Positions 670 through 14,648 of a DNA stretch of 56,591 bases are shown in pieces. The notes below the pieces were generated by a model that searched no databases, was not told the origin of the DNA, and saw only the letters and a list, made by a program, of their open reading frames with translations. A program made the position numbers and the translations under genes. This DNA comes from a bacterium. Lineage in GTDB: Bacteria; Chloroflexota; Dormibacteria; Aeolococcales; Bog-877. The stretch's first letter is position 1, and every line of letters begins with the position of its first letter. The DNA is taken from contig JAJYET010000012.1 in NCBI GenBank assembly GCA_021785655.1, positions 1 through 56,591 of the forward strand, in the 5' to 3' direction.

Positions 670-2214
670 TCAGCCGAGTTCCGGCACCACCTGACGCGCC
701 CGCTCCAGTACCCTTCCGTCGCTCACCGCCCTGGCCACCGCCTCCAGCTCCGGACTGGTGAAGCGGTCCGCCCCGACGCCGCCCCCAAGCTCGCGGACCA
801 GCTCCCCCACTGCCCGGCCGGCCGGCCCCGGCCGCAGTGGCTGGCGCAGCTCCAGTCCTCGGGCCGCGGCCAGCAGCTCCACGCCGAGGATCCGGGAGAG
901 GTTGTCCACCACCTGGCGCAGCTTGCGAGCGGCCCCCCAGCCCATGGAGACGTGGTCCTCCTGCATCCCGGAGGTGGGCAGCGAGTCCACGCTGGCGGGC
1001 TGGGCCAGCCGCCGGTTCTGGGCCACCATGGCGGCCGCGGTGTACTGGGCGATCATCAGCCCCGAGTTGACCCCCGCCTCCGCCGCCAGGAAGGGGGGGA
1101 GCCCCTGGGAGCGTGCCGGGTCCAGGAGCCGGTCGACCCTTCGCTCCGCGATCGCCCCCACCTCGGCGGCGGCGATGGCCAGGAAGTCCAGCGCGAAGGC
1201 CAGCGGCTCTCCGTGGAAGTTGCCGGTGGACGCCACCCGCCCGTCCCTCAGGACCACCGGGTTGTCCACCGCCGAGCGCAGCTCCCGCTCGGCGACACCC
1301 CGGGCGAAGTCCAGGGTGTCCCGGGCGGCGCCCGCGACCTGTGGGGCGCAGCGGATCGAGTAGGCGTCCTGGACCGCGTGAGGAGACTGCGCATGGGAGG
1401 CACGGATCTCTGAGCCACTCAGAAGGCGTCTCAGGTTCCCGGCGCTCACCATCTGCCCGGGATGGGGGCGGATCTGGTGCAGCTCGGCGATGAAGGGGCC
1501 GTCGGTGCCCAGCAGGGCCTCGGTGCTGAGCGCCGCTGAGACGTCAGCGGTCGCCAGGAGGTTCTCCAGGTCCTCGATCGCCAGCACCAGCATCCCCAGC
1601 ATGCCGTCGGTCCCGTTGATCAGGCTGAGCCCGTCCTTGACCTCGAGCTGAATGGGCTGGAGCCCCGCCTCCCCCAGCGCCACCTTGCCCCCCACCACCC
1701 GGCCGTCCGGCAGCTCCGCCCATCCCTCACCGATCAGGACGAGGGACATGTGGGCGAGCGGAGCCAGATCCCCGCTGGCACCCAGGGAGCCGTGCTCCGG
1801 CACGATCGGGGTTATCCCGGAGTTCAGCAGCGCCACCAGCTGGTGGGCGACCTCCGGGCGGCTGCCCGAGTACCCGAGGCACAGGGTGCGGGCCCGGAGC
1901 AGCATCATCGCCCGCACCACCTCGACCTCCACCTTCGGCCCCATACCGGCGGCGTGGGAGCGGATCAGGGCGTGCTGGAGCCGGGAGCGTTGGTCCACGG
2001 GGATGCTGGTGTTGGCGAGCAGTCCGAAGCCCGTGGAGATCCCGTAGGCGGGGATGGCGCCGGCCCCTATCTCCTCCACCAGCCGCCGGGCCGAGCTCAT
2101 CGCCGCATCGGCTTCCTGGGTGATCTCCGCCAGAGCGCCGTGGCGGGCCACCTCCACCACGTCCCGGCGGCCCAGCCCCTGGTCCCCGATGTGGACCGTG
2201 GCTGCCGCGCTCAC
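670..2214 (-). CDS. hutH: Histidine ammonia-lyase
   Basis: Deaminates L-histidine to trans-urocanate, the first step of the Hut pathway, in the cytoplasm. From the GTG at 2214 the protein is 514 residues, the usual family length; the open frame extends 30 codons further upstream but that part is unconserved. Visible motifs are YGISTGFG near residue 57 and GSLGASGDLAPLAHMSL, whose Ala146-Ser147-Gly148 triad cyclises into the MIO electrophile, followed by NGTDGMLGM. No hutU, hutI or hutG is in the window, but a cyclodeaminase-like fusion protein lies at 13.4-14.6 kb and could handle one-carbon units from histidine. The upstream 750 bases are a gene graveyard, so its promoter is unclear. Confidence 0.93.
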   Translation of the reverse strand: MSAAATVHIGDQGLGRRDVVEVARHGALAEITQEADAAMSSARRLVEEIGAGAIPAYGISTGFGLLANTSIPVDQRSRLQHALIRSHAAGMGPKVEVEVVRAMMLLRARTLCLGYSGSRPEVAHQLVALLNSGITPIVPEHGSLGASGDLAPLAHMSLVLIGEGWAELPDGRVVGGKVALGEAGLQPIQLEVKDGLSLINGTDGMLGMLVLAIEDLENLLATADVSAALSTEALLGTDGPFIAELHQIRPHPGQMVSAGNLRRLLSGSEIRASHAQSPHAVQDAYSIRCAPQVAGAARDTLDFARGVAERELRSAVDNPVVLRDGRVASTGNFHGEPLAFALDFLAIAAAEVGAIAERRVDRLLDPARSQGLPPFLAAEAGVNSGLMIAQYTAAAMVAQNRRLAQPASVDSLPTSGMQEDHVSMGWGAARKLRQVVDNLSRILGVELLAAARGLELRQPLRPGPAGRAVGELVRELGGGVGADRFTSPELEAVARAVSDGRVLERARQVVPELG

Positions 2215-2276
2215 GACGGGGTCCCAGGCGGGGCCGACTCTCCACCCCGGGAGACCAGTGGGACTCCCCCCTGATG

Positions 2277-2441
2277 TAGATGAGCGATCCCGCTCACCCT
2301 CCAATGGCGCATGGTCTTCTTCATCTCATCCCCCAGCATGGCGATCACCGGTCCAACTCCCCGCTCTCCTCCCGCCGCAAGTCCGTAAAGGTAAGGCCTG
2401 CCGACCAGGGCCGGATCGGTGGCCAGGGCCAGCGCGGTCAC
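2277..2441 (-). pseudogene. Remnant of FMN-dependent alpha-hydroxyacid dehydrogenase (C-terminus)
   Basis: About 55 residues on the minus strand match the end of the lactate/glycolate oxidase family: VTALALATDPALVGRPYLYG, then LAAGGERGV and LGDEMKKTM. In intact enzymes this follows the DGGxRRGxD FMN-phosphate site; here nothing of the preceding 300 residues is recognisable. The fragment ends just before hutH. It is a decayed gene tail, interesting because a functional FAD-type 2-hydroxyacid dehydrogenase lies 4 kb away. Confidence 0.6.
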
Positions 2442-13388: not shown

Positions 13389-14648
13389 TCAACCCTGGGC
13401 GGCGAACTCCTCACGAAGGCGCAGCACAGCCTCCCGCGCCGCTCCGGTGATCTCCAGCGCCAGCCGGCGGTCCAGCTCCAGCGCCGCGGTGGTGCGCAGC
13501 CCGCGCAACCGGGCCTCCAGCTCGGCGAGAGCGGCGGCGATCTCCTCAGGGCTCGCCAGCGCCGCCTGCCGAGCTTGGGCCTCACCCTGGTGCCGCCGCT
13601 GCGCTCGCTGAAAGGCGCCGAACGCCTGGCGGTCGTGGTCCGCGGCAAGCAGCAACCTGGCCGCGCTGTGGCCGGAGCGGGCGATCTCCTGGGGGTCCTC
13701 ATGCATCCGGCAGAGGCCGTCCAGGGCGGCCGCGAGCGCCCCGGTGATCGCCGCCCCGGCCGCTCCCCCGGCCGGGTCCCGCGGCGAGAGCAGGCGCGCC
13801 ACCGCCTCCAGCAGTGACCAGGAGGCGACGGGCCCCGGGCTGAGCTGAGCCAGCTCGGTCAGGGAAAGCAGGGCACAGATCGAGGTCACCCGCCCGATGC
13901 CGCCCGGGACCGGGGTCACCCGAGTGGCACCGGCGGCTGCCTCCGTGCCCACGTCTCCGCGCAGGGACCCGTCCACCATCGACGTGCCGACATCCAGCAC
14001 CGTCGACCCCTGGCGCACCACCCTGGCAGGGATGATCCCGGCGATCCCCACAGCGGAGATCAGCACCTGGTATGCGGGCAGGGGATCCATCCGATCCACG
14101 TCGTGCTGCACCACAGTGACCTGGGCACCGGCTGCCAGCAGCCGCTGGGCGATCGGCCGGCCGCCCGTGGGGCCGTGCCCGATCAGGAGGACCGCCGTCT
14201 CCCTGAGGTCGTATTCCAGGTGGCGGAGGGTAGCCAGGCAGGCCTCGGCCACCGGGGTGCCACGCCGCAGGCCCGCGGCGGCGGCCGCCTGGGCCGCCGG
14301 GGTCACGGCCTCGACGTCCTTGCTGGCGGGGAGGTGGGCCTCCACGGTTCCCGGGGCCAGCGAGCTGACCGGCTGGACCACGACCACCCCGTCCACCGTG
14401 GGATCCAGGACCAGCTCATCCAGCAGGAGGAGCGTCGCCTCGGGGCTGTCCTGCGGTGCCAGCCGGTGGTCCACCTCGATCCCCGCCTCCCTCGACTCCC
14501 GCTCCAAGGAGCGGGCGAAGGAGCGTCCGGCGACATTGCCCGCCTCCACCAGCACCCCCAGGCGGAAGGGTCGCCGGCGGGCCCGGGAACGCTTCGCCAG
14601 CTCCGAGCGGAGTTCATGTCCGAGGACGGAGAGGTCGTAAAGGGGCAT
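13389..14648 (-). CDS. Fusion of a FolD-like methylene-THF dehydrogenase and an FTCD_C/FchA-like cyclodeaminase domain
   Basis: 419 residues. Residues 1-270 follow FolD: LGVLVEAGN, VDGVVVVQP, SKDVEAVTP, the nucleotide loop GHGPTGGRP (157-165), VLDVGTSMVDGSLRGDV and TPVPGGIGRVTS. The FolD catalytic Tyr and Lys (YxxxK) are Phe44 and Leu48 here, and the DKDVDG aspartate region is altered, so FolD cyclohydrolase activity should be lost. Residues 274-419 match the all-helical formimino-THF cyclodeaminase/FchA family (DPAGGAAGAAITGALAAAL, AADHDRQAFGAF). The fused domain could supply methenyl-THF (from formyl- or formimino-THF) to the dehydrogenase half. ATG at 14648 begins the conserved part. Confidence 0.75.
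   Translation of the reverse strand: MPLYDLSVLGHELRSELAKRSRARRRPFRLGVLVEAGNVAGRSFARSLERESREAGIEVDHRLAPQDSPEATLLLLDELVLDPTVDGVVVVQPVSSLAPGTVEAHLPASKDVEAVTPAAQAAAAAGLRRGTPVAEACLATLRHLEYDLRETAVLLIGHGPTGGRPIAQRLLAAGAQVTVVQHDVDRMDPLPAYQVLISAVGIAGIIPARVVRQGSTVLDVGTSMVDGSLRGDVGTEAAAGATRVTPVPGGIGRVTSICALLSLTELAQLSPGPVASWSLLEAVARLLSPRDPAGGAAGAAITGALAAALDGLCRMHEDPQEIARSGHSAARLLLAADHDRQAFGAFQRAQRRHQGEAQARQAALASPEEIAAALAELEARLRGLRTTAALELDRRLALEITGAAREAVLRLREEFAAQG

Follow-up and report, generated by a model that had tools for sequence, protein, structure and literature searches.

What can a FolD-like protein do once it has lost the catalytic lysine of FolD and carries an extra domain at its C terminus? 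The question is raised by a gene in the window analyzed here, a stretch of 56,591 nucleotides (contig JAJYET010000012.1 of assembly GCA_021785655.1) from a member of the Dormibacteria. A first-pass annotation of this stretch had proposed that a lysine-less FolD was fused to a cyclodeaminase/FchA domain that replaces the lost cyclohydrolase activity. We examined each half of the protein, the FolD proteins of the phylum, and the folate genes of the genome in order to evaluate this proposal.

The fusion gene and its FolD half

The possibility that the fusion was an assembly chimera or the product of a frameshift was ruled out because its full-length homologs (Table 1) are present in independent MAGs, the gene order murE-adh-fusion-HIT-moeB is kept across them, and the dN/dS ratios against the window gene are well under 1 in the FolD half (0.12-0.38) as well as in the C-terminal half (0.04-0.42). 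The neighbors (murE, alcohol-dehydrogenase-like, HIT, and moeB/thiF) were named from sequence appearance. Purifying selection acts on both halves, about equally strongly. All the full-length relatives found were in Dormibacteria-type MAGs.

Table 1. Features of the fusion gene, with positions in the window.
Feature	Position	Strand	Basis
Whole fusion gene, 419 aa plus stop, ATG at 14648	13389..14648	-	ORF; homologs 66-96% identical over the full length
FolD-like half, residues 1-270 (folate-binding 12-113, Rossmann NAD(P) 133-266)	13839..14648	-	PF00763, PF02882, PDB FolD matches
Residues 44-48, FARSL, at the FolD YxxxK position (F44/L48 for Tyr/Lys)	14505..14519	-	E. coli FolD alignment
Residues 109-114, SKDVEA, at the FolD DKDVDG position (E113 = E. 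coli D121)	14307..14324	-	Alignment
Residues 157-163, GHGPTGG, dinucleotide-binding glycines; FolD GRSxxVG NADP motif lost	14160..14180	-	Alignment
C-terminal five-helix divergent FTCD_C/FchA-like domain, residues 271-419	13392..13838	-	Domain HMM, hhalign, AF2 model, Foldseek
D339 codon in D-x-x-A-F motif, equivalent of rat FTCD Asp412 (1tt9)	13632..13634	-	Alignment; invariant in family

The assignment of the N-terminal half to the FolD family is clear. PF02882 matched above its cut-off (9.8e-24), PF00763 fell just below its own (2.5e-7, 31.4 bits against 32.8), and 26 solved FolD/MTHFD sequences in the PDB matched this half. Alignment with E. coli FolD placed F44, L48, V91, and E113 of the fusion at Y50, K54, Q98, and D121, respectively, and these four residues are identical or nearly so in all the full-length relatives. 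The Phe44/Leu48 pair and the SKDVEA site described in the first-pass annotation were thus confirmed, with no lysine at the active position, but the changes at Q98, at D121, and in the NADP motifs had been missed: GRSxxVG and CHSxT are rewritten as GHGPTGG and VVQHDV. The GxGxxG motif is accompanied by D183, an invariant acidic residue after the second strand, which hints that the fusion may use NAD+ rather than NADP+.

In FolD, the cyclohydrolase reaction uses the lysine as its general acid/base, the glutamine positions this lysine, and the aspartate positions the pterin (PMC3338484). Because the lysine and its helper glutamine are both gone, the FolD half should be unable to run the cyclohydrolase step. 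Whether it is a dehydrogenase acting on folate is uncertain, because the folate-binding helpers Tyr50 and Asp121 are also lost and the stem leading to the fusion is about 4 changes/site long. Yeast Mtd1 is a precedent for dehydrogenase activity that survives without a working YxxxK; like the fusion, Mtd1 and other monofunctional methylene-THF dehydrogenases have the FolD fold without this motif, although these enzymes carry no fused cyclohydrolase-like domain.

The C-terminal domain and FTCD_C

The first-pass annotation had residues 274-419 matching the FTCD_C/FchA family. By Pfam, this match was not recovered: PF04961 gave nothing above its cut-off in residues 271-419 (E = 1, 9.5 bits against 24.5). 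As the Pfam scan was unusable for this purpose, we turned to profile-profile comparison, a predicted structure, and an HMM search in the reverse direction, and by these the match stood. A domain HMM (A2) built from the fused domains alone, with no FTCD_C sequence, was run on 400 genomes of the phylum. Its best hits outside the fusion's own family (G126, G182, G190, and G174; 2.5e-5 to 1.2e-4) were stand-alone FTCD_C genes, all four above the Pfam cut-off, with E-values of ~1e-15 for FTCD_C (two of them scanned as proteins), and all four immediately upstream of a folD without K54. In hhalign, the match of the fused domain to FTCD_C rose from 46% to 95.5% when this bridging stand-alone subfamily was included; the score with the bridge was 57.4, against a maximum of 21.7 in 40 column shuffles and 20.7 for the reversed profile, and the score against canonical FTCD_C alone was 31.9, against 18.8 in controls. 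The segments ASW...GG...AAL and AD.DR.A are common to the fused domain and the FTCD_C alignment.

Residues 270-419 were modeled by AF2 as five helices (pLDDT 74, pTM 0.71). The top PDB match of this model in Foldseek was the Thermotoga cyclodeaminase 1o5h (probability 1.00, TMq 0.67, with a weak E of 0.17), and the FchA structure 7vg4 was also among the matches. The full-length model was poor (pLDDT 62) and its Foldseek matches were FolD only. Asp412 of rat FTCD, a catalytic residue of the cyclodeaminase active site, maps to D339, which is invariant in the fusion family. The C-terminal helical fold and this aspartate are therefore what the fusion has in common with FTCD (1tt9) and 1o5h; in contrast with them, it has no formiminotransferase domain or gene, and the GKxxY, GN, and NVxINL motifs, as well as LPKxT, are missing from the fused domain in the alignment with FTCD_C. 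The PGGGS loop has become (P/A)AGGAA, retaining just GG. The HMM, the profile-profile comparison, the fold, and the invariant Asp agree that the C-terminal domain is a divergent, shortened homolog of FTCD_C/FchA. Our literature search turned up no open-access paper about the active-site residues of FTCD_C.

Divergent stand-alone FTCD_C genes are found upstream of folD in genomes of f46/g88 (L108, L109, L128, and L129). Their products, with a CGGGV loop and no GKxxY, stand between canonical FTCD_C and the domain of the fusion.

A domain so reduced could be what is left of a degenerate FTCD_C, retained for folding, oligomerization, or docking, with the dehydrogenase half alone active and methenyl-THF hydrolyzed without an enzyme or by an unrecognized one. 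Several of the conserved residues of canonical FTCD_C are indeed missing, and methenyl-THF hydrolyzes spontaneously. However, many of the same losses are shared by the stand-alone bridge proteins encoded beside K54-less FolDs, D339 is invariant, and the C-terminal domain is under selection about as strong as that on the FolD half. In addition, the window's genome, which is 91% complete, yielded neither a second FolD nor another candidate for the cyclohydrolase. We consider the remnant explanation unlikely.

Lysine 54 and its FTCD_C partner in the phylum

Of 121 genomes, 94 have FTCD_C, in most cases as the gene just upstream of folD on the same strand. Among the FolDs examined across the phylum, none of the 68 with an adjacent same-strand FTCD_C gene has kept K54, which is mostly replaced by Ile, Leu, or Val; conversely, the 26 FolD rows with K54, of which 23 come from the phylum, two are copies of E. 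coli FolD, and one is gammaproteobacterial, all lack such a neighbor. On the FolD tree, the loss of K54 is placed at roughly a single transition, so the 68:0 count is to be read as one strong association and not as 68 independent events. Genomes of the same order without FTCD_C retain K54. Three genomes of the same class (G017, G079, and G095) have an FTCD_C gene that is not adjacent to folD, together with FTCD_N and a FolD with K54, the pattern expected if their FTCD_C proteins serve histidine breakdown. Loss of the lysine alone is therefore not unusual, being the rule for FTCD_C-paired FolDs in the phylum. K54 loss where FTCD_C adjoins folD provides a simple annotation test, and many Chloroflexota genes annotated as "bifunctional FolD" probably encode dehydrogenases only.

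Fusion of the two partners has a much narrower distribution. In the Dormibacteria family that includes the window's genome (f1), exactly one FolD above the cut-off was found in 14 of the 16 genomes and the fused domain was present in all 14; the two genomes without the fusion are 84% and 86% complete. The survey that the first-pass annotation had called for, conducted with the domain HMM, detected no fusion in other families among the 400 genomes.

Because K54 loss tracks the presence of an adjacent FTCD_C partner and the fused domain is distantly related to FTCD_C, the best reading of these sequences is the one first proposed, namely that the fused domain would replace the lost cyclohydrolase. 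The arrangement resembles systems with a stand-alone FchA, in which a dehydrogenase is likewise paired with a cyclohydrolase of the FTCD_C family: Clostridium perfringens and acetogens use FolD for the first role, Methylobacterium uses MtdA (with FchA 7vg4), and in most of the Chloroflexota sampled fchA adjoins a K54-less folD. The fusion differs from these in being one polypeptide with the order FolD-FchA, the opposite of the fchA-folD gene order of the phylum, and in the shortness and strong divergence of its FchA-like domain. It resembles bifunctional FolD (E. coli 1b0a) in the two-domain fold of residues 1-270, in its place in the pathway, and in being single copy, but it lacks K54 and Q98, has Y50 and D121 replaced and the NADP motif changed, and carries the additional C-terminal domain.

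In two trees, the fusion fell among K54-less, mostly FchA-paired FolDs, but AU tests (p 0.95 and 0.22) did not reject a grouping with the K54-bearing FolDs of the class to which it belongs. It may have arisen either by the fusion of an fchA-folD pair with swapped order or by the gain of the domain by a bifunctional FolD.

A probable source of 10-formyl-THF

No Fhs was found in the window's genome or in 13 of its 15 family relatives (14 of the 16 family genomes). Users of 10-formyl-THF are present: purM-purN-purH are grouped, and of the three Formyl_trans_N proteins of the genome, PurN is above its NCBIfam cut-off and one was taken as Fmt by size and Pfam match only. No PurU was identified among the three. 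Given these users and the absence of Fhs, 10-formyl-THF most likely arises from methylene-THF via methenyl-THF, and the fusion is the sole visible candidate for the two steps. Flux from methylene-THF to 10-formyl-THF is likelier than the reverse; the direction suggested in the first-pass annotation, from formimino- or formyl-THF to methylene-THF, is thus disfavored.

The fusion probably joins a methylene-THF dehydrogenase to a cyclohydrolase of the FchA type and produces 10-formyl-THF, both activities being predicted. The N-terminal half would act as a FolD-type dehydrogenase without the cyclohydrolase step, and the C-terminal domain would hydrolyze the methenyl-THF that this dehydrogenase produces, yielding 10-formyl-THF for PurN, PurH, and Fmt. 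The direction of flux and any channeling between the halves are likewise putative. A more detailed version can be proposed tentatively, with a channeled, probably NAD-dependent two-site enzyme whose minimal 149-residue FTCD_C domain has a stripped-down site, and in which FolD, split by the loss of its lysine, was re-formed by fusion. The parts are known, but the FolD-FTCD_C fusion appears to be a new domain arrangement, and no report of it was found in our literature search. If this model holds, the protein would be a naturally occurring fusion of FolD and FchA, in which a dehydrogenase with a single function and a separate cyclohydrolase were combined to rebuild a bifunctional enzyme. It would also help to establish the minimal set of FTCD_C residues that cyclohydrolase chemistry requires.

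The long stem, the replacement of Tyr50, Lys54, Gln98, and Asp121, and the rewritten NADP motif could also point to a changed function, in which an extremely diverged FolD/FTCD_C pair has a different pterin or C1 carrier as its substrate or acts as a regulator. Such a change is improbable, as the genome has to make 10-formyl-THF and has no FolD besides the fusion, which keeps 35 of the 58 columns conserved in FTCD_C-paired FolDs, including TPVPGGxG, GD, and KD.

A formimino route, with the C-terminal domain deaminating histidine-derived 5-formimino-THF and the FolD half reducing the resulting methenyl-THF to methylene-THF, is very improbable: the hutH noted in the first-pass annotation is real (670-2304, minus strand, TIGR01225 above cut-off), the FTCD_C family includes cyclodeaminases, and one genome of genus g103 in the same family has FTCD_N, but hutH lies ~11 kb from the fusion, no FTCD_N formiminotransferase was found in the window's genome, in its congeners G119, G135, and G143, or in G348 and G386, and the three genomes above with both FTCD_C and FTCD_N keep the K54 that the fusion has lost.

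Several further arrangements were seen among these genes. The third formyltransferase of the window's genome (L192, 918-2869) is of uncertain kind, with Fmt as its best match, below cut-off; the next gene downstream of it is FdhD-like. In genus g103, two genomes (G381 and G402; L195, L198, and L199) have, besides the fusion, an FTCD_C match in a frame of 500-620 aa; in G381, the frame region also has FTCD_N, and the genome has Fhs. Second folD copies lacking both K54 and Q98 (YLLDL, FVLDL, or YVLDL) occur in genomes that also carry an FTCD_C-paired copy (L148-L153, L155, L159, L161, L162, and L166), and these second copies form one clade. In L144 (1234-3093) and L146 (1311-3128), two folD genes lie in tandem, of which one has K54 and the other lacks it, with no FTCD_C in the stretches around them.
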